From Adhaeribacter aquaticus DSM 16391 (lineage in GTDB: Bacteria; Bacteroidota; Bacteroidia; Cytophagales; Hymenobacteraceae): a stretch of DNA of 64,000 nucleotides. Positions 2,750 through 49,977 of this stretch are shown piece after piece; position 1 is the stretch's first letter, and every line of letters begins with the position of its first letter. The notes beneath the pieces are model-generated. The model made no database searches and was not told the origin of the DNA. It was given only the letters and a program-made list of their open reading frames with translations. The DNA is taken from NCBI RefSeq assembly GCF_000473365.1, contig NZ_KI421517.1, positions 1,517,606 through 1,581,605 of the forward strand, given 5' to 3'. The position numbers were made by a program, and so were the translations under genes.

Positions 2750-3496
2750 TTAGGCAGCGTTTCGGGATTGTATAATTGTTTTAGCTACCAACCTTGCAGT
2801 ATTGTAGCACTCGTATTCACACTCCTTGTTACCCTGAAGGCCCTTTTTTTCAATGTTATCAGCAGCTAATAATTCAGTAAAGCGGATAGCAGCTAATTCC
2901 GTTTCGGTCATATGTTCACGGGTATTGGCTTTTACAGGTAAGTTTTTCTTTTCCCGTACTAATTGAGCACCACCTCCATACATGGGAGTAAGAATAGCAT
3001 TAGTACAATCTCTGAAACCAATACCCTTTACCCCGTGGGCGGCAAGAGATGCACAAAAAGCAAGACGGGCAACTTTGCCGTTCAAACGTTCAGCAATCCA
3101 GTTATCAGACTTGCCGTGTTTTTTGTAGGTTCTGATACCACGATCAATAATCAGATCAGGGTTCTTCTCTTCTTCTATCCGTTCCAAGAAGACTTGGTTA
3201 ACTGTCAGGTGAAGTTCAGGCGATAGATACTTAGCATAAGCCAACGCGATTTGTTTATGAGCGAATGTGCCACCTCCCTTCCCTTTTTTAGATTTTATAA
3301 TACGTTCTGAGGACGTATTTAAAATTCCAGCAGCAGTATCTATTAATGTCTGTGTTGCATCTTGTCTCAACCAAGCATTAGGATTTGAAAAGCGATCATT
3401 ACCTGAAGCTTTCCAAAGGTCAGTTAAACTAATCCGGCCTTCTCCATCTTTGGAGATTTCAACACCGGCAAATGAGAATGGGATAACGGCTTTCAT
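2750..3496 (-). CDS. KilA-N domain protein (phage DNA-binding/antirepressor type)
   Basis: The N-terminal ~110 residues match the KilA-N fold: a strand with the start of the domain (VEISKDGEGRISLTDLWKAS), then NAWLRQDATQTLI, a basic Gly/Lys loop (SKKGKGGGTFAHK) and ALAYAKYLSPELHLTVNQVF, the usual closing helix. KilA-N domains bind DNA and are found in phage antirepressors and in early proteins of phages and large DNA viruses. Residues 115-248 form a second, less conserved domain with no recognised family; it may be the effector or oligomerisation part. The start overlaps the stop of the upstream HTH gene as TGATG, so the two are coupled. The place just after the Cro-position gene fits an antirepressor or early regulator. 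Confidence 0.88.
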   Translation of the reverse strand: MKAVIPFSFAGVEISKDGEGRISLTDLWKASGNDRFSNPNAWLRQDATQTLIDTAAGILNTSSERIIKSKKGKGGGTFAHKQIALAYAKYLSPELHLTVNQVFLERIEEEKNPDLIIDRGIRTYKKHGKSDNWIAERLNGKVARLAFCASLAAHGVKGIGFRDCTNAILTPMYGGGAQLVREKKNLPVKANTREHMTETELAAIRFTELLAADNIEKKGLQGNKECEYECYNTARLVAKTIIQSRNAA

Positions 3497-5730: not shown

Positions 5731-7026
5731 ATTCCAGGCACTCAATAATTCATCCGCAATGATACCGGGTGCTACCTTTGTATAAGGATCATTCTTAAAC
5801 TTATGCCCTAAAAGCTTTTCCTTTAAAGCATCATTCCGGGTAACCTCAAATATACGGCTGGCTCCTGTTTGCCGGGAATTGTGACCCGAAATTACCTGAT
5901 GCAAAGGTACCAGTTTCCCTTTGTATAATACCTTGCGTTCTAACTTCGCTTCCTGCGTTGCTTCCTTTAACCGCTTCCAGTAATACCAATTATTAAAAGA
6001 TCCATCCTGGTTCCGGGGTATCGGAATACGGCCGTACCTATCAATTAATGCCTGTGCCATTGGTGGAATAGGTATATAAGTGGTATACTCCGTTTTAACC
6101 TGCTTTTTTATAATGGCTTTAAAGGCTCCGTGTTTCCGGGTATTTATTTCTAAATAACTGGCTGGGGTCAAGCTGGTTAAATCCGACCACCGCAAACACA
6201 ACTGGCAATTAATAACAAAGGTGTGCGCCGCCTCCGCTACCAACGGATCAGCATACATCGTATCTTTCAGTTTTAAAACTTCCGGCCAGTACAAATCAAA
6301 GGTTTCTGTTTCGGCAGCACTCACCACCTCAATCCACTCCGATGGCAATTGATGTTCTTTGAGGATCTTCTTTAAGTTGGACTGAAGCAGCCGGATAGAA
6401 TTAGAAGAACGTATTTCACTTTCCGCATAAATAAACTGATAGAACTCAGGCAACCATTCTTTATCTATATCCTGCGCTTTGGTTTGCTCACTAAATTTGG
6501 TTATCCAACCTACGGTTGTACGCATGGCCACATAGGTATTAAGCCCTTTTATCTGGCTCTTAAGTTCTTCCTTTCCGCGAAGATTGTACCGCTCCTTATG
6601 CAACACCTGTTTTTTCCAGTCCTGGTAAACCTGGTTATTCTCGGCATTTACATCCAGGTGGTTTAGCTTATTTTTGGAGGCCAGAAACTCCCACCGCCAT
6701 TGGTTAAACCAATCTTTTATATTGCCGTTATCCTTTACTTTTCGGGCTGGATTAATAATGGTTTGAAGAACAGACAAAGTAAATTCCTTTGGCCGGTTTT
6801 CATACTGGATGGCTTCATTAAAAATACGCCCGTCCAGGTCAATTAATTTGGTTCGGATGTATTCGTAACGGGGGTGCTTAGTGGAAACGAAAGGTTTGTC
6901 TTTTAACCAGTATTTCGGGTTAACAGAAATTCCGGTAGAAGCCCGGATTTTAAAAGGGGAAACCCAAACCATGACAACTGTTTTTTTTGCCTTGGGTTTA
7001 TCGGGATAAAGATAGACACTTATCAT
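5677..7026 (-). CDS. Tyrosine recombinase (phage/ICE integrase, Bacteroidota type)
   Basis: The 449-residue product has the layout of Bacteroidota site-specific integrases: an arm-type DNA-binding domain (residues ~1-75, with the strand pattern KTVVMVWVSPFKIRASTG), a SAM-like core-binding domain (~100-225) and a catalytic domain (~240-430). Catalytic residues are visible: Arg279 in CLRWSDL, a beta-hairpin lysine around 311, His382 and Arg385 in GHNSR, His408 in LLGHKF and the nucleophile Tyr415 in DPYTKVAP. All are intact, so the enzyme is probably active. It would catalyse integration and excision of the element whose early genes lie to the left. It lies at the element's right edge, so an attachment site is expected in or near 7027-7153. 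Confidence 0.93.
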   Translation of the reverse strand: MISVYLYPDKPKAKKTVVMVWVSPFKIRASTGISVNPKYWLKDKPFVSTKHPRYEYIRTKLIDLDGRIFNEAIQYENRPKEFTLSVLQTIINPARKVKDNGNIKDWFNQWRWEFLASKNKLNHLDVNAENNQVYQDWKKQVLHKERYNLRGKEELKSQIKGLNTYVAMRTTVGWITKFSEQTKAQDIDKEWLPEFYQFIYAESEIRSSNSIRLLQSNLKKILKEHQLPSEWIEVVSAAETETFDLYWPEVLKLKDTMYADPLVAEAAHTFVINCQLCLRWSDLTSLTPASYLEINTRKHGAFKAIIKKQVKTEYTTYIPIPPMAQALIDRYGRIPIPRNQDGSFNNWYYWKRLKEATQEAKLERKVLYKGKLVPLHQVISGHNSRQTGASRIFEVTRNDALKEKLLGHKFKNDPYTKVAPGIIADELLSAWNLIEAEGNKQDYFFIGNS

Positions 7027-7459: not shown

Positions 7460-7489
7460 AAAAAAGGGGATGATAAACTCCCCTTTTTT
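7460..7489. terminator. Bidirectional intrinsic terminator
   Basis: An 11-bp perfect inverted repeat (arms 7460-7470 and 7479-7489; A-tract plus GGGGA against TCCCC plus T-tract, 8-nt loop) lies between the convergent 92-residue gene and the cytochrome c gene and can act in both directions. Confidence 0.8.
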
Positions 7490-9793: not shown

Positions 9794-10501
9794 ATGAAAA
9801 TTGATATATGGTCAGATATAGCCTGTCCGTTTTGCTATATCGGGAAACGCAAATTTGAGCAAGCCTTAGAACAATTTCCGCATAAAGACCAGGTGGAAGT
9901 AGTGTGGCATAGCTTCCAGTTAGATCCGGAAATGCAATTTGTACCAGGCAAAAGCATCAACGAAGTATTGGCTGAGAAAAAAGGTTGGAGCCCACAACAG
10001 GCAAAGCAAATGAATGCCCAGGTAACCGGCATGGCAAAAGAAGTAGGTTTAGACTACAACATGGACCAAACCATTCCGGCTAATACATTCCATGCTCACC
10101 GGCTTACTCATTTAGCTGCCAAACACGGGTTACAAGATCAGGCGGAAGAACGTCTTTTCCAGGCTTATTTTATGGAAGGTAAAAACATTGGCGATACTGA
10201 TACGCTGGTTCAGTTAGGAACAGAAATAGGCTTGGAGGAAGCGCTGGTTCGGCAGACTTTAGAAAATAACTTATTTGCTAATGAAGTAAACCAGGATAGC
10301 TTTGAAGCCCAGCAATTAGGCATCAGGGGCGTTCCCTTCTTTGTATTAAACCGCAAATACGGAGTTTCAGGAGCGCAACCCTCTGAATTATTTTTACAAA
10401 CGCTGGAAAAAGTTTGGGAGGAAGAAAAGCCTGTTATTACGCCTATCACTACGAACGAAGGGCAAGATGCTTCTTGTTCTGATGGGATGTGCGAAGTCTA
10501 G
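9794..10501 (+). CDS. DsbA-family oxidoreductase (FrnE-like)
   Basis: The 235-residue product has a thioredoxin fold with the CPFC active site near the N-terminus (WSDIACPFCYIGKRKFE). A helical insertion follows, then the cis-Pro region GIRGVPFFVLNRKYGVSGAQ. There is no signal peptide, so it acts in the cytoplasm like FrnE-type DsbA homologues, which have disulfide oxidoreductase or isomerase activity and are linked to polyketide and stress functions in other bacteria. A Cys-containing tail (DASCSDGMCEV) may be a second redox or metal site and is unusual to see so close to the end. It ends directly at a 20-bp-arm terminator. Confidence 0.9.
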   Translation: MKIDIWSDIACPFCYIGKRKFEQALEQFPHKDQVEVVWHSFQLDPEMQFVPGKSINEVLAEKKGWSPQQAKQMNAQVTGMAKEVGLDYNMDQTIPANTFHAHRLTHLAAKHGLQDQAEERLFQAYFMEGKNIGDTDTLVQLGTEIGLEEALVRQTLENNLFANEVNQDSFEAQQLGIRGVPFFVLNRKYGVSGAQPSELFLQTLEKVWEEEKPVITPITTNEGQDASCSDGMCEV

Positions 10502-10547
10502 TTTATAAAAAAGAGGGGCTGGTAAATCAGCCCCTCTTTTTTATAAA
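10502..10547. terminator. Extended symmetric terminator, 20-bp perfect arms
   Basis: Arms 10502-10521 and 10528-10547 are perfectly complementary around a 6-nt loop. The A-tract and T-tract pair with each other and pairing continues 5 bp past the T-tract. It begins on the base after the DsbA-family stop and ends just before the stop of the convergent porin-like gene. Confidence 0.92.
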
Positions 10548-10548
10548 C

Positions 10549-11148
10549 TTATTTGCCAAATAATTTATACCCTAGACTTACCAGAACTTGCTGGTTACCT
10601 ATATCGTAACTAGTACTTTGGTTGGTATATTCTCTATTAACACGTTCGTACCGTAAATCAGCAGAAAAACTAGATATATCAATGCCAACTCCTGCCTGAA
10701 AACCCCAATCCGTTTTGTCTAAATAGTTTTCTATTCGCTCTTCTCCCAATTTCCCATTCATCAGTACTGAAGCCACCGGCCCCGCCTGAATTCTAACTAA
10801 GTTTAATAAGCTAAAACCTACCAATACTGGCACATCCAGCCGATTAAACCGTGCTCTTATCTCTTCTACGTTATTGCTGCTTATTTCTTTCCGTTCTAAT
10901 TTACCTCCAGTAGTTGAAAAATAAGCTTCTGGTTGTACCGTAAACCCTGCTGCTTTTAACCGTACAAAAGCGCCGGCATGGTAACCGGTAATACTTCCTT
11001 CATCTTTAAATTGATATAAATTGTTTTTAAGGTTGTTTACATCAACAGTTGAAGAACTTGCCCCTACTTTAAGGCCCAGACTAACTTGAGCTTGCGCAAC
11101 CATTCCGGTTGTAAGCATAACAAACAAAATAAGTATTCCTTTTTTCAT
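10549..11148 (-). CDS. Outer-membrane beta-barrel protein (PorT-like family)
   Basis: The 199-residue product has a Sec signal peptide (MKKGILILFVMLTTGMVAQA) and then alternating amphipathic strands, as in VSLGLKVGASSS, GYHAGAFVRLKAAGF and FSADLRYERVN. It ends QVLVSLGYKLFGK, with the amphipathic strand and C-terminal aromatic-type signal of an eight-stranded porin-family barrel. It should insert in the outer membrane. Bacteroidota have many such barrels, and the ligand or role is not predictable. The 5' region holds a striking 16-bp inverted repeat with a 60-bp spacer that may control it. Confidence 0.8.
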   Translation of the reverse strand: MKKGILILFVMLTTGMVAQAQVSLGLKVGASSSTVDVNNLKNNLYQFKDEGSITGYHAGAFVRLKAAGFTVQPEAYFSTTGGKLERKEISSNNVEEIRARFNRLDVPVLVGFSLLNLVRIQAGPVASVLMNGKLGEERIENYLDKTDWGFQAGVGIDISSFSADLRYERVNREYTNQSTSYDIGNQQVLVSLGYKLFGK

Positions 11149-18072: not shown

Positions 18073-18108
18073 AAAAAAGCCGGTATGTAATTACATACCG
18101 GCTTTTTT
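18073..18108. terminator. 36-bp perfect palindromic terminator, no loop spacer
   Basis: Arms 18073-18090 and 18091-18108 abut with no unpaired centre (GTAATTAC middle), ending in a 6-T run. It lies downstream of the 134-residue lipoprotein gene (minus strand) and upstream of topB. Confidence 0.9.
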
Positions 18109-18796: not shown

Positions 18797-19651
18797 ATGA
18801 GAAATTTTGAAAACTCGGACACTTCGTCCTTCAATACGTTTAGGTTTGGTGACGAAAATCCCCGGCGACTAACTCCTTACCAGGCAAGTAACACTAATAC
18901 CCATATTAACCGGCCTGGCTCCGACCCAAGTACTGATGATCATTATGATCGGAATTCGTTAATGCGCCACCCAAATGAACATATAAATTTGTACGGGAAC
19001 GAAAATCAGAACCGGAATCAACAACGGCAACAACCCCAACAAAATAGCTGGCAACGCAACCAAAACCAGGAACACCAGAATCAGAATCGTTGGCAAGTTG
19101 ATCACCGGCAATATAGAAACAATTACGGCAACCATTCCCAGGACCGGGATTACGACCGTCACCGTTCCGGCGACAGTGATTTCTTTGAAAGAACTGGTGA
19201 CCGGATAAACGAAACTTGGAACCGCTGGACCAATGACGATGATAACCGGTACAACCAGAATCAGAACCGTAACCAGCAGTATAACCAAAACCGAAATTAC
19301 GACCAAAATAACTATAATAATCAGAACCGGTATTCGCCTGACAATAGGTATCAAAACTTTAATAATCAAGAGCGCGGATACAATGAAAATCGGTATAACC
19401 AAAGTCGCCGGAACGAAAACCGGATGGACAATCACGAAGAAGAAGGTTTCTTTAACCGGGTAGGTAATTATATCAGTAATGCCTGGGACCGGATTACAGA
19501 AGAGGAAAGAGAAGATAGAGAAAGAGCAAACCGATATGAGCGCAATCACCGGAATGATGATTACCGCTCAAACCGGGGTTCTAACAACTCCAGAAACGAT
19601 GGTCCGCCATATAATTATGGATCTTCCTCATCCAGAGACTATGAATGGTAA
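18797..19651 (+). CDS. Asn/Arg/Gln-rich disordered protein with duplicated amphipathic motif
   Basis: The 284-residue product has 59 Asn (about 21%), abundant Arg, Gln, Asp and Tyr, and no lysine or cysteine at all. It has no signal peptide and no membrane segment. Two related segments stand out from the disorder: residues 129-145 (FFERTGDRINETWNRWT) and 218-234 (FFNRVGNYISNAWDRIT), each a likely amphipathic helix followed by acidic residues. They recall the conserved helix-plus-SWFGD segment of Arg/Asp-rich stress proteins in Bacteroidota, though SWFGD itself is absent. Composition suggests nucleic-acid binding or condensate formation. The gene ends in a 27-bp-arm terminator. Function unknown. 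Confidence 0.8.
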   Translation: MRNFENSDTSSFNTFRFGDENPRRLTPYQASNTNTHINRPGSDPSTDDHYDRNSLMRHPNEHINLYGNENQNRNQQRQQPQQNSWQRNQNQEHQNQNRWQVDHRQYRNNYGNHSQDRDYDRHRSGDSDFFERTGDRINETWNRWTNDDDNRYNQNQNRNQQYNQNRNYDQNNYNNQNRYSPDNRYQNFNNQERGYNENRYNQSRRNENRMDNHEEEGFFNRVGNYISNAWDRITEEEREDRERANRYERNHRNDDYRSNRGSNNSRNDGPPYNYGSSSSRDYEW

Positions 19652-19653
19652 CT

Positions 19654-19713
19654 AATAATAAGTAGATAAAAAAAGCCGCTAAAAATAGCGGCTTTTTTTA
19701 TCTACTTATTATT
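19654..19713. terminator. Extended symmetric terminator, 27-bp perfect arms
   Basis: Arms 19654-19680 and 19687-19713 match perfectly around a 6-nt loop and start 3 bases after the stop of the Asn-rich gene. Pairing extends 14 bp past the T-tract. It lies between the convergent Asn-rich and SulP genes. Confidence 0.95.
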
Positions 19714-19742: not shown

Positions 19743-21311
19743 CTAATGAGAAACCACACTGGTTACTTCTGGTATCCCTATTAATTCTACCTTTAAATTT
19801 TTTGCTGAAGCATTAAATTTAAAATTATGAATGGCATCCAGCACATCATAATCAATAAAGGTAGATTTAGAGCCATCAATAATGACGTTGCTATTCTCAG
19901 GCAAATGATCAAGGGTCAAAACAATGCTGGCTTTATTTAAGAAGGTAACATTCTCACTTAACTGAATTCTAATAATATCCTCACCAAGATCACGATTCTT
20001 CTGGAAGAAGAAGGGTGATTTATAGTTAGCTCTTAATATATAAAAAATCCCTATTACTAAACCAACAGTGATACCTTTTAATAAATCTGTGAATAAAATA
20101 GCCAGAATAGTAATGATAAACGGAATAAATTGCTCAGTTCCTAACCGCCATTGAGCTTTATATAAAGCGGGTTTCGTTAATTTAAACCCTACCATCAATA
20201 AAATTGCCGCTAATGCAGAAAGTGGAACATGGTTGATATACTCAGATAAAAAAAGAACACTAAGTAATAATAAAATACCGTGTACAAAACTGGAAAGCTT
20301 GGTTTGGCCACCAGCATTTACGTTAGCTGAACTTCTTACGATTACCGCTGTCATGGGCAAACCACCCAATAAGGCACTAACAATATTACCAATACCTTGT
20401 GCTTTAAGCTCCCGGTTAGGAGGCGTTATCCGTTTATACGGATCTAATTTATCTACTGCTTCTACACTCAATAAAGTTTCTAAGCTGGCAATTATAGCAA
20501 TCGTAAAAGCGGTAATATAAATCTGCGGATTGGTTATTTGTGAAAAATCCGGAAGTCTTAATTCGCCTAATATTTCCACTGGAGATGCTACAACTGGTAA
20601 CTGTACCATGTGGGTATCCGCAATAAAAAGGTCAGGATTAAAAATATTAAAAGCCTGATTTAGAAAAACAGATGCAATAACCGCTACCAATGCACCGGGA
20701 ACCAATTTAAAAAAAGAAATTCGTTGCAGCGGTTTGCTTTCCCAAATAACTAAAATTAATAGGGCAAACAAGCCAATAATTAAGGCTCCTTTCTCCATGC
20801 TATTAAATCCACGTCTTATCTCGGAGAAGGTATTTTTGCCATCTGCCCAAAAAAATGACATTTCGCCGAGAAGATGCTCATTAGCCCCTAAAAAGTGTGG
20901 TATTTGTTTTATTATTAATATCAAACCAATAGCGGCCAGCATGCCTCTGATTACAGAAGACGGAAAATACAAGCCTATGATGCCCGCCTTTGCAAATCCT
21001 AAAACCAGTTGCAGAAAACCTGCTATTAACCCAGCTAATAGAAAAGCCTCAAAACTTCCTAAACTTTGAATACCGTTTAAAACAATTACAGTTAACCCAG
21101 CTGCCGGTCCGCTGACACTTAAAGCAGAACCACTTAGCATAGAAACCACAACACCACCTACAATGCCTGTAATAAGTCCAGCAAATAAAGGTGCGCCTGA
21201 AGCCAGAGAGATGCCTAAACAAAGAGGTAATGCCACCAGAAAAACAACCAGACCAGCTGGTAAATCTTTCTTTAAAGAGGCAATATTAAAAGTACTAGAC
21301 TGTTTTTGCAT
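19743..21311 (-). CDS. SulP-family inorganic anion transporter
   Basis: This is a 522-residue SulP/SLC26 permease. The N-terminal region has the family start DLPAGLVVFLVALPLCLGISLASGAP and the SALSVSGPAAGLTVIV block, with roughly 10-14 transmembrane helices to about residue 415. A C-terminal STAS-like domain (about 440-520, with NVIIDGSKSTFIDYDVLDAI) is short but recognisable. SulP proteins carry sulfate, bicarbonate or other anions, and no residue seen here decides between them. Upstream lie an 18-bp palindrome and a large inverted repeat; the two-component system gene that ends at 21445 reads toward it. Confidence 0.9.
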   Translation of the reverse strand: MQKQSSTFNIASLKKDLPAGLVVFLVALPLCLGISLASGAPLFAGLITGIVGGVVVSMLSGSALSVSGPAAGLTVIVLNGIQSLGSFEAFLLAGLIAGFLQLVLGFAKAGIIGLYFPSSVIRGMLAAIGLILIIKQIPHFLGANEHLLGEMSFFWADGKNTFSEIRRGFNSMEKGALIIGLFALLILVIWESKPLQRISFFKLVPGALVAVIASVFLNQAFNIFNPDLFIADTHMVQLPVVASPVEILGELRLPDFSQITNPQIYITAFTIAIIASLETLLSVEAVDKLDPYKRITPPNRELKAQGIGNIVSALLGGLPMTAVIVRSSANVNAGGQTKLSSFVHGILLLLSVLFLSEYINHVPLSALAAILLMVGFKLTKPALYKAQWRLGTEQFIPFIITILAILFTDLLKGITVGLVIGIFYILRANYKSPFFFQKNRDLGEDIIRIQLSENVTFLNKASIVLTLDHLPENSNVIIDGSKSTFIDYDVLDAIHNFKFNASAKNLKVELIGIPEVTSVVSH

Positions 21312-21355: not shown

Positions 21356-21445
21356 ATTAAAACAGCATTAAAATAACATTAAAAACAGATTAAATTTTAA
21401 TTTTATTTTAATTTTTTATTAATGTCATTTTAATGCTGTTTTAAT
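21356..21445. repeat. 26-bp inverted repeat between histidine kinase and SulP genes
   Basis: Arms 21356-21381 and 21420-21445 match at 25 of 26 positions across a 38-bp AT-rich spacer. The right arm reaches the first base of the kinase stop codon. In RNA it would form a long hairpin, perhaps a 3' boundary for the kinase operon or a SulP leader. Confidence 0.8.
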
Positions 21446-22830
21446 TAAAATTTAATTAAAATCTCCGATAAATTATAAAGGCTGATAGTTACTTCTGTGC
21501 CCACTGCTATCTGAGAGGAAATTTGGATAGTGCCCCGGTGGAGCTTCATTATTTTTTCGGCTAAAGGCAGGCCAATACCATGACCGGAAGTATCCCGAAC
21601 ATTATCGGCTCGAAAAAATGGCACAAAGACCTTTTTTAAATCTGAAGGAGTAATTCCCACCCCCTGGTCTTTAACAATTAATAAAATCCGTTGGTGATCT
21701 ACTTTTATGATACCAGCCACTGGCTTACCATCCGAAAACTTACAGGCATTTTCAAATACATTTAATAAGGCAATTAATAACAATGATTCATTGCCTTTCA
21801 CCATTATTTTGCGTTCGTCTTCTGGCAACTGATCAAAATATATATCAATTTTAAATTTAGGGTTACGTTTTTGGGCTTCAGAACCAGCCTGGTAAACCAA
21901 CTCATCAAACCGGATAGGGGTAAGTTTAATTTTAGATATGTCGAAGCTGGCATGGGCAATCTGGAGCATACCGTTTGATAAACGGGTTAACATCCGGGCT
22001 TCGTCCAGAATGGAATATAAAACATGTTGGTATTCGGTTATTTCGCGGGGCTTCATTAAGGCTACCTCTAATTCACCAATCATAGCCGTTAATGGAGTAC
22101 GCAGCTCATGCGAAGCATTGGAAATAAAGGTATTTTGCATATCAAAGGCACTTTCCAACCGGTCCAGCATGCGGTTAAAGGTCTGAGCCAGGTGTGATAA
22201 TTCATCTGCCCCATCTGCCTGGCTTAACCGAAGGTGCAAATCAGAAGCACTTATCTGTTCCACCTCATCAACTACTTTCAGGATAGGACGCAAAGCTTGC
22301 TTGGAAAAAGCCCATCCACTACCTACCACCACTACCATAGAGAGTAAAAACCCTACTCCTAATATCAACCGGAGATCTTTCAGTTCTTTTTGGGTAAGCT
22401 CATCAATAGAGGAAGCTATAACAATAAACTTACCCTTTTCATCATTAAAAATAATACCGGCTAGTTGTCTTTTATTTTCCCGCAGCAGAATTTTTCCCTC
22501 TCTTCTGACACTTTCTAACAGTTCGGGCTTAATAGCAATGGAACCTTCCCCTTCCCGAAATACATTTTTCCCTTCCCAATTATAAACCTGTACTATTTCG
22601 TGTGGCAGGGTCTGGTAATATTTACGCAGTAGCCTTCTATAGCTTTCTTTGCTTACTTTATCAGCATCTAAGTAAACATGAGCCACAACATTAGCCCGGT
22701 TTACCAAACTATCATAGAAGGCACTACTATCAGAATAGGAGTAGAAAAAATAAACAATTAAGGAGAATAAAACTAAAATTATGGCAAAAATGGAGGTAAA
22801 CTGGAGTGTTAACCGGGTCCGGATTTTCAT
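21445..22830 (-). CDS. Sensor histidine kinase (HAMP, HisKA, HATPase)
   Basis: The 461-residue product has a first transmembrane segment at about 10-32, a periplasmic sensor of ~120 residues (FYDSLVNRANVVAHVYLDAD) and a second membrane helix at about 154-178. A HAMP segment follows, then the H-box ISNASHELRTPLTAMIGELE and the ATPase motifs NVFENACKFSD (N), VKDQGVGI (G1) and GHGIGLPLAEKI (G2). All catalytic residues are present. It starts 4 bases after the response regulator stop, so the two form one operon. The signal is unknown. The sensor size matches metal- or envelope-stress kinases of the CusS-like type, but this is only a resemblance. Confidence 0.93.
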   Translation of the reverse strand: MKIRTRLTLQFTSIFAIILVLFSLIVYFFYSYSDSSAFYDSLVNRANVVAHVYLDADKVSKESYRRLLRKYYQTLPHEIVQVYNWEGKNVFREGEGSIAIKPELLESVRREGKILLRENKRQLAGIIFNDEKGKFIVIASSIDELTQKELKDLRLILGVGFLLSMVVVVGSGWAFSKQALRPILKVVDEVEQISASDLHLRLSQADGADELSHLAQTFNRMLDRLESAFDMQNTFISNASHELRTPLTAMIGELEVALMKPREITEYQHVLYSILDEARMLTRLSNGMLQIAHASFDISKIKLTPIRFDELVYQAGSEAQKRNPKFKIDIYFDQLPEDERKIMVKGNESLLLIALLNVFENACKFSDGKPVAGIIKVDHQRILLIVKDQGVGITPSDLKKVFVPFFRADNVRDTSGHGIGLPLAEKIMKLHRGTIQISSQIAVGTEVTISLYNLSEILIKF

Positions 22831-29187: not shown

Positions 29188-29247
29188 AGCTCAGCATAAA
29201 TAAAAAGGGCGACTACTATTAGTCGCCCTTTTTATTTATGCTGAGCT
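29188..29247. terminator. Extended symmetric terminator, 28-bp perfect arms
   Basis: Arms 29188-29215 and 29220-29247 pair perfectly around a 4-nt loop, with pairing continuing 14 bp past the T-tract. This is the longest perfect one in the window. It closes the xylose operon on the plus strand and faces the convergent sugar isomerase-like gene. Confidence 0.95.
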
Positions 29248-36355: not shown

Positions 36356-36404
36356 AAATAAAAAGAGCGTTTTGTCGGGATAAGACGAAACGCTCTTTTT
36401 ATTT
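36356..36404 (+). terminator. Symmetric terminator, 21-bp arms with one mismatch
   Basis: Arms 36356-36376 and 36384-36404 around GGGATAA with one wobble-type imperfection. The A- and T-tracts are in the stem. It follows the 64-residue gene. Confidence 0.9.
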
Positions 36405-37842: not shown

Positions 37843-37855
37843 AAAATATATTGTT

Positions 37856-37897
37856 TAAAATAAAAAAGCCTCCCGAATGGGAGGCTTTTTTATTTTA
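37856..37897. terminator. Symmetric terminator, 19-bp perfect arms
   Basis: Arms 37856-37874 and 37879-37897 pair perfectly around GAAT, with 6 bp past the T-tract. The right arm includes the stop codon of the convergent minus-strand gene. Confidence 0.93.
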
Positions 37898-38587
37898 ATC
37901 TTTACTAACATAACTGCCACTAAAAATAAAGAAAAAGTCAGGTTCACTTGAATCTATTTTGTTATTCTCATGAAAGAAGTTAGCCATTTCCAGAGCGTTT
38001 CCCTGCGAGGTTTTATCCGCACTTAATATATAAGTTAAGTTGGAAAGCTGATCTACTATTTTGGTATTTGTTCTTTTAGCCATATTTTCTAAATCGGCAA
38101 GTGTGGAAGTAGATTTTAAATTAACAATAAACTGGTTAGTTATACCACGATCAGAACCGTCATTAGAAAAGAATGGTGTGGCATAACGCACCGCTTTGCT
38201 TTGTTTTAGCAGATCCAGTCCTGCCTGAACCTGTGAACAAGTAATGCCTTCTTTTAATAATATAACCGTAGCATCAGCACTACCTGTATGGTTTTCGCTT
38301 TCAATATTCTGTAGAAAAGAGTGGTTTGAGATAAACTGATTTTTCTGTTCAGTAGTAAACCCATCCTGGAAGCCAATAATAACCCGTTTGGTAGACACAT
38401 TTCCTAACTGCACTTTATCTTGATTATAATAGTAAAAATAAGACTTACAAGGTGTATTTTCTGCTCTACTTGGAAGATCTATAACCGTTTGTTCTGTTAA
38501 AGACTTTGGCTCAATATATTCTTTTTGACAACCAAATGAAACGAATATTAAACTAAATAAAATTAAAGGTAAATTTATGTATTTCAT
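37895..38587 (-). CDS. Lipoprotein with two subtilase-propeptide-like domains, no protease domain
   Basis: The start at 38587 gives MKYINLPLILFSLIFVSFGC, a lipoprotein signal with lipobox SFGC (an in-frame ATG at 38608 would add 7 residues). The mature part contains two similar blocks: VSTKRVIIGFQDGFTTEQKN... (about 68-130) and ITNQFIVNLKSTSTLADLEN... (about 150-220), the second ending SSEPDFFF. This pattern resembles the inhibitor-type propeptide of S8 serine peptidases (fervidolysin-like prodomain), where EPDF marks the end. No catalytic domain follows, since the protein ends there. It may be a stand-alone protease inhibitor, but that is inference. Confidence 0.65.
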   Translation of the reverse strand: MKYINLPLILFSLIFVSFGCQKEYIEPKSLTEQTVIDLPSRAENTPCKSYFYYYNQDKVQLGNVSTKRVIIGFQDGFTTEQKNQFISNHSFLQNIESENHTGSADATVILLKEGITCSQVQAGLDLLKQSKAVRYATPFFSNDGSDRGITNQFIVNLKSTSTLADLENMAKRTNTKIVDQLSNLTYILSADKTSQGNALEMANFFHENNKIDSSEPDFFFIFSGSYVSKD

Positions 38588-43112: not shown

Positions 43113-43170
43113 GTAGGCCATAAAAAAAAGTCCTGGGTTATATAACTCAGGACTTTTTTTTATGGCCTAC
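43113..43170. terminator. Extended symmetric terminator, 27-bp arms, one mismatch
   Basis: Arms 43113-43139 and 43144-43170 pair at 26 of 27 positions around a 4-nt loop, with 9 bp past the T-tract. It lies between trpS and the convergent 131-residue gene. Confidence 0.93.
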
Positions 43171-45714: not shown

Positions 45715-45760
45715 ACATCAATAAAAAAGGCCTTCTGCAGAAGGCCTTTTTTATTGATGT
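45715..45760. terminator. 46-bp perfect palindromic terminator, no loop spacer
   Basis: Arms 45715-45737 and 45738-45760 abut with no spacer (CTGCAG centre) and match at 23 of 23. Pairing continues 8 bp past the T-tract. It lies between the convergent mutase and dnaB genes. Confidence 0.95.
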
Positions 45761-49939: not shown

Positions 49940-49977
49940 AAAAAAAGCTGATGGCACATAAGGCATCAGCTTTTTTT
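49940..49977. terminator. Bidirectional terminator
   Basis: A 14-bp stem (49940-49953 with 49964-49977), with A- and T-tracts of 7 or more, lies between the convergent exonuclease and M48 peptidase genes. The loop is 10 nt. Confidence 0.88.

Follow-up and report, generated by a model that had tools for sequence, protein, structure and literature searches.

Why should the symmetry of a transcription terminator continue well past its T-tract? This question is raised by a stretch of 64,000 nucleotides of the Adhaeribacter aquaticus DSM 16391 genome (positions 1517606-1581605 of contig 1; hereafter the window). The initial annotation of this DNA described six intergenic inverted repeats, all between convergent genes, that include the A- and T-tracts of a terminator and keep pairing beyond them, and it proposed that the extension serves bidirectional termination, protection of RNA 3' ends or blocking of converging polymerases. 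The genome comprises 5.17 Mb in 4 contigs. According to our own codon-model gene calls, the window contains 64 genes and is 85 percent coding, with a GC content of 39 percent. We analyzed the window together with 60 further stretches, i.e., 1.26 of the 5.17 Mb. This sample includes 132 convergent and 559 tandem gaps of at least 20 nt, in which 70 and 93 terminators were detected, respectively. Terminators were called using only the core and the T-run, so that the procedure was blind to outward pairing.

All six inverted repeats were recovered between convergent genes, and their arms of 20-29 bp are perfect or nearly so. At each of the six, the A- and T-tracts are equal in length (5-8 nt), and the pairing beyond them that had been reported was also found: 7, 14, 14, 7, 9 and 8 bp in the order of position. 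None of the six is assigned to a strand. The palindrome at 10500..10549 (arms 22/22 with 7 bp past tracts of 6 nt, loop 6) reaches into the final bases of the two convergent genes, 9794-10501 on the plus strand and 10549-11148 on the minus strand. The one at 19654..19713 (arms 28/28, loop 4, 7-nt tracts plus 14 bp) starts 3 nt past the stop of the plus-strand gene 18797-19651. Arms of 28/28 and a loop of 4 are also found at 29188..29247, where 5-nt tracts are followed by 14 bp including GCTGAGCT. The palindrome after lysA, 37855..37898 (arms 20/20 with 7 bp past tracts of 6 nt, loop 4), shares bases with the stop (37895) of the facing gene. The palindrome after trpS, 43113..43170, has arms of 28/29 with one G.T pair in the core and 8-nt tracts plus 9 bp. 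The last one, 45715..45760, lies between a phosphoglucomutase-like gene and dnaB (arms 23/23, 6-nt tracts plus 8 bp). Folded as single-stranded RNA, the six give z-scores of -9.4, -11.5, -14.2, -8.1, -11.6 and -7.7, respectively.

In each case a GC-rich hairpin lies just downstream of the stop codon and is followed by the T-tract. Because an A-tract is present upstream at all six, the reverse strand also reads as a hairpin with a T-tract. Judged by this anatomy, the six are probably ordinary bidirectional intrinsic terminators, a known kind, which would stop transcription in both directions in the cell. A long-read survey of E. coli by Ju et al. (2019) reportedly found bidirectional intrinsic terminators between convergent genes. 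Published terminators of this kind (PMC5381666, PMC7566282, PMC12207403) share with ours the GC-rich hairpin common to converging genes, the upstream A-tract and the downstream T-tract, and their tracts can pair. The difference is that here the symmetry often runs 5-17 bp past both tracts, which the consulted portions of these three papers do not describe. Symmetry past the tracts in convergent pairs was likewise unreported in the titles and abstract openings found by our literature search, which covered few subscription journals. A search of the window against Rfam at the gathering threshold gave no matches.

The window contains 10 convergent gaps of at least 20 nt, and 8 convergent terminators were detected in it. 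Six of the 8 are extended; the other two, omitted from the initial annotation, have no extension past the tract and, like the six, are assigned to no strand. At 7460..7489 (detected at 7466-7483) the outward pairing of 6 lies within the tracts, and so does the outward pairing of 7 at 49940..49977 (detected at 49947-49970). The comparison with tandem terminators made in the initial annotation roughly holds within the window. The plus-strand terminator at 36356..36404 (detected at 36365-36395) has an outward pairing of 9, of which 4 bp are past the tract, and the minus-strand terminator at 18073..18108 is an 18/18 palindrome with no extension past its tracts. Elsewhere in the genome, long extensions also occur on tandem terminators. 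A different kind of repeat is found at 21356-21462, where several degenerate repeats resembling ATTTTAAT cluster between the minus-strand genes 19743-21311 and 21445-22830.

Could such symmetry arise by chance from base composition? The flanks are AT-rich, and the probability of chance pairing is about 0.30 per position. In the 1.26 Mb sample, pairing continued at least 5 bp past equal tracts in 26/70 convergent and 11/93 tandem terminators, and at least 8 bp past them in 13/70 and 6/93. As a null model, we shuffled the right flanks among the terminators within each class in 2000 permutations. Swapped flanks predict only 0.8 convergent and 0.4 tandem terminators with an extension of at least 5 bp, and the observed counts were reached in 0/2000 permutations. 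The A- and T-runs were equal in 41 of the 70 convergent terminators vs 14.7 expected. The initial annotation had named extension expected from base composition alone as an outcome that would overturn its reading, and flank swapping did not give this outcome. Since no permutation matched the observed counts, chance or AT-rich composition is rejected for the whole sample, and we regard the probability of this explanation as negligible. The palindromes past the tracts are real and commoner than chance allows. The window itself is atypical: an extension of at least 7 bp is present in 6/8 of its convergent terminators vs 11/62 of those sampled elsewhere (p 0.002).

Extension was approximately three times commoner in convergent than in tandem terminators (Fisher 2.6e-4). 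Such an excess would be expected if the long symmetric arm were itself selected, either because it improves two-way termination, or because it protects the 3' ends of occasional read-through RNA, or because long hairpins or DNA cruciforms stop converging polymerases. Selection on pairing is the main rival to the origin that we favor below, and the very stable predicted RNA folds also speak for it. However, tandem pairs have extensions too. An outward pairing of 22 bp, the longest found, is represented by one case in each class. When only terminators with an A-tract of at least 4 nt were compared, 26/57 convergent vs 11/48 tandem terminators were extended (p 0.024). With the comparison restricted to equal tracts, the numbers were 26/41 vs 11/26 (p 0.13); much of the difference between the classes therefore comes with equal A- and T-tracts, and the insignificance of the remaining excess speaks against a selected arm. 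Thus, the comparison of convergent and tandem pairs suggested by the initial annotation, made over 24 percent of the genome, bears out an overall convergent excess but not a significant one given equal tracts. Hidden facing genes behind the 11 extended tandem terminators were considered and rejected. No credible facing ORF was found within 200 nt of these terminators; the two ORFs of at least 30 aa have coding scores of 0.7 and -2.8, which are not credible.

The shape of the arms is informative. In convergent terminators with equal tracts, the next pair forms in 257/298 cases while all earlier pairs hold and in 18/59 cases after one mismatch. Over the ten positions past the first mismatch in the 26 extended convergent terminators, 70/260 pair, which is near the chance level of about 0.30. 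Pairing resumed through a bulge of 1-2 nt in 0/26 of these terminators (0.02 with swapped flanks). Among tandem terminators with unequal tracts it did so in 3/22 cases vs 0.05 expected, which looks like decayed stems. Arms that are perfect up to a sharp end, with near-random sequence beyond it, are as expected of a product of quasipalindrome template switching, and near-chance pairing beyond the first mismatch is a point against a selected arm.

A part of the extensions might have a simpler origin. Short extensions of 5-6 bp could be long A/T-tracts interrupted once (e.g., TTTTGTTTT) and mirrored as both directions need a tract. A second TTTT was found at the extension in 10/26 convergent and 8/11 tandem extended cases, as this explanation predicts. 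Yet it leaves unexplained the mixed-composition extensions of 8-17 bp, for example ATGGCCTAC and ATTTATGCTGAGCT in the window, and we consider it improbable.

Long inverted repeats are not limited to the detected terminators. Perfect inverted repeats of at least 14 bp number 61 in 24 kb of convergent gaps, 34 in 109 kb of tandem gaps, 5 in 54 kb of divergent gaps and 5 in 1073 kb labelled as coding, in which the ends of stretches are included. Their concentration in convergent gaps is an argument for a selected arm. A few palindromes have no usual T-tract: in L143, a perfect one whose arms measure at least 22 bp lies across the ends where two convergent genes face each other (5998-6052), and in L153, at the 3' end of trpS of genome G006, an 18-bp perfect inverted repeat without a T-tract begins with the final base of the stop codon. 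Two further observations concern single loci. In L025, near 19680, the final gene called in the stretch is followed by a perfect inverted repeat of at least 21 bp whose T-tract is strongly interrupted. L011 has two terminators approximately 700 bp apart, at 3053 and 3771, with the same core and, as printed, the same flanks, which suggests a tandem duplication.

The gene-end location and the palindromic form of these structures are also features of mobile or repetitive elements, and one could suppose that REP-like, MITE or IS-end palindromes have been inserted at gene ends. In agreement with this, apart from the reverse reading of the 19654 terminator itself, five matches to it (80-91 percent) were found at four other places of the genome. 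Against it, these places (L003, L005, L006 and L007) are alike mainly in the core and tracts. Besides, among the 26 terminators with at least 12 outward pairs in the 1.26 Mb, none has a full second copy and three have partial matches of 16-22 nt. We reject REP, MITE or IS-end palindromes by this copy number and consider an origin from mobile or repetitive palindromes very improbable.

We compared the occurrence of extension between relatives. Extended convergent terminators were found in 7/33 cases in four members of the genus and in 5/15 cases in three members of the family. The other Bacteroidota, after removal of family loci, gave 2/35, and two genomes from outside the family gave 1/9. The family including the own genome thus has 38/118 extended convergent terminators vs 3/44 in the others (p 5e-4); without the own genome the family has 12/48 (p 0.024). 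In 250 kb of E. coli MG1655, 0/8 convergent and 0/13 tandem terminators were extended. Strain variation of E. coli was therefore dropped as a test bed, and the lack of extension in the 8 convergent terminators is another point against a selected arm. A published map of gene-end inverted repeats in E. coli (PMC6060812) agrees with our data in that most repeats there are parts of intrinsic terminators. The difference, as far as the consulted part of that paper goes, is that the map is poor in repeats of at least 13 bp, whereas here 26/70 convergent terminators exceed the tract by at least 5 bp.

For four of the six palindromes we were able to find orthologous junctions in the same genus that are still convergent, 13 in total: 2 for lysA, 4 for the 19654 junction, 5 for trpS and 2 for dnaB. 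Junctions in which the next gene is on the same strand (L153, L263 and L264) or has no assigned orientation (L324 and L325) were left out, and L150 and L155 were counted though their facing gene is about 400 nt off. Only 2/13 junctions have an extension of at least 5 bp. One is the lysA junction of G001, with arms of 29 bp and extension letters unlike those of the window; the lysA junction of G002 has an arm of 9. The other is the trpS junction of G003, with 6 bp past a 3-nt tract. TrpS of the window is 84 percent identical to TrpS of Adhaeribacter aerolatus. The trpS junction of G001 has a different extension broken by an indel and was counted as unextended, and a script search found no terminator-like repeat in the trpS junctions L150 and L155. 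At the 19654 junction, the arms of all four convergent orthologues measure 12-14 and are not extended, and the orthologues of the dnaB junction (L028 and L029), with 1-2 bp past the tract, are also unextended. The extension is therefore mostly not conserved between relatives, which counts against a selected arm.

Where many orthologues of one junction are available, substitutions on the two sides of the stem can be compared. For a convergent junction (junction A) in the genus of G009 we collected 40 orthologues in addition to G009, 41 in all (L216 and L269-L308). The hairpin was usable in 38 of them, i.e., in all except L291, L292 and L303. The tree was built from sequence beyond the hairpin, and parsimony was used to assign changes to its branches. 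Among outward pairs 4-7, there were 23 cases of both sides changing on one branch, and 20 of these ended paired (null 8.25; 0/2000). At pairs 8-11 there were 9 simultaneous changes vs 7.6 expected (p 0.33), and at pairs 12-16 there were 9 vs 14.2. Weighting by branch length led to the same result, and slid controls of the tree-based test at this junction showed no excess. Without L288, L281 and L298, where indels shifted the register, the numbers were 18 vs 6.7 (0/2000) at pairs 4-7, 5 vs 5.6 at pairs 8-11 and 7 vs 10.9 at pairs 12-16. A shuffle ignoring relatedness additionally gave excess pairing at positions 11, 14 and 16 (p 0.003-0.005).

It follows from the covariation at pairs 4-7 that pairing is clearly maintained in the zone expected to be part of the RNA once released; further out, no maintenance was detectable. 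The covariation at pairs 4-7 speaks for a selected arm, and the lack of tree-based covariation at pairs 8-16 speaks against it. The result is only partly generalizable: it concerns one junction in another genus, and the right flank of this junction carries a conserved element from approximately position 12. The element, AACCCTTTAC, lies about 12 nt past the start of the T-tract and is exact in 34/41 sequences; AAGGTT comes after it within 75 nt in 25/41. It is possibly an RNA element or a binding site. Compensatory evolution of terminators has been described in Bacillus cereus (PMC5381666), where, too, stem pairs coevolve and shared convergent terminators are more constrained. In comparison with the consulted part of that study, the coevolution seen here, at one junction, reaches the tract zone (pairs 4-7) and is unseen in the outer arm. 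Another junction (junction B), with 15 orthologues in the genus of G017, mostly has no tract-type terminator and is outside all the statistics. In genomes of the same genus, the segments 440-525 and 580-653 of the query L225:12900-13600 are dispersed repeats with many copies among the matches listed.

We explain these observations as follows, with confidence slightly above even. The palindromes would be ordinary bidirectional intrinsic terminators in which the inner pairs are maintained and the outer pairs originate from quasipalindrome, i.e., hairpin-templated, mutation. One GC-rich hairpin between an A-tract and a T-tract would serve both converging genes. Pairing of the tracts up to approximately 7-9 nt from the GC core would correspond to the zone of the RNA stem and U-tract and would be kept in evolution. 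DNA synthesis may stall at such a strong hairpin, and one flank may then be copied from the other by quasipalindrome template switching, which would make the outer pairing perfect. The outer pairs would subsequently drift away or be rewritten, and a function of their own would be unnecessary. Bidirectional terminators would be the best seeds for such copying because selection already keeps the A- and T-tracts on both sides.

According to the consulted parts of two papers, template switching perfects imperfect inverted repeats in E. coli (PMC7202029) and is able to create RNA hairpins (PMC8794818). The likeness to our case is that imperfect inverted repeats are made more perfect. The difference is that in these sources the process has been documented with reporters and deduced for RNA genes, while here a pattern in a genome sample points to it and no event was observed. 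Template switching would explain the sharp perfect arms, the equal tracts, the tandem cases, the unrelated letters of orthologues and the palindromes without the usual T-tract. In addition, termination is thought to fall 7-9 nt past the hairpin (PMC7566282, in the part consulted), so the outer 3' arm should be outside the normally terminated transcript. Loss of the hairpin nuclease SbcCD as a cause was rejected by a search for SbcD, the subunit that was sought: the own genome has it, and among 29 genomes searched a match was found in 26, above the family cut-off in 24.

Three observations stand against a copying origin. In four pairs of closely related Bacteroidota, taxa with few extended terminators, none of 90 substitution clusters bore a footprint of template switching. 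The gain of pairing in L271, L277 and L278 relative to L284 and L287 (junction A) looks stepwise, as isolated substitutions suffice and no block copy is needed. The third is the convergent excess. Selection on pairing would account for the covariation at pairs 4-7 just as well, and the excess pairing at positions 11, 14 and 16 in the shuffle that ignores relatedness, as well as the resumption of pairing after a bulge in tandem terminators with unequal tracts, also count against copying. Nevertheless, we consider selection of the long arm rather unlikely, and in its appearance the extension is closer to a copying scar than to a new device.

As to the initial annotation, its bidirectional-terminator geometry and the convergent excess are supported. 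Its suggestion of a role for the extension itself in termination, 3'-end protection or polymerase blocking is not, in view of the comparison at equal tracts, the 2/13 orthologues, the position of termination relative to the hairpin and the covariation confined to pairs 4-7. Weak or occasional function of the extension may exist. A functional outer arm, if there is one, would be an unrecognized component of two-way terminators.

The stems of terminators are commonly interpreted in functional terms alone. Should most long arms past the tract be products of copying, neither stem length nor compensatory change at gene ends could be accepted uncritically as a sign of selection, and natural terminators would document template switching in bacteria across the genome. 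More tentatively, and with confidence somewhat below even, we suggest that terminators of this family are self-extending: a two-way hairpin could seed mutations by templating its own flanks over and over, with the result that convergent gene ends turn into near-perfect palindromes, some of them without the usual T-tract. If this is true, the shape of gene ends would record the replication process rather than transcriptional need, and the covariation seen in terminator stems would be partly mutational.
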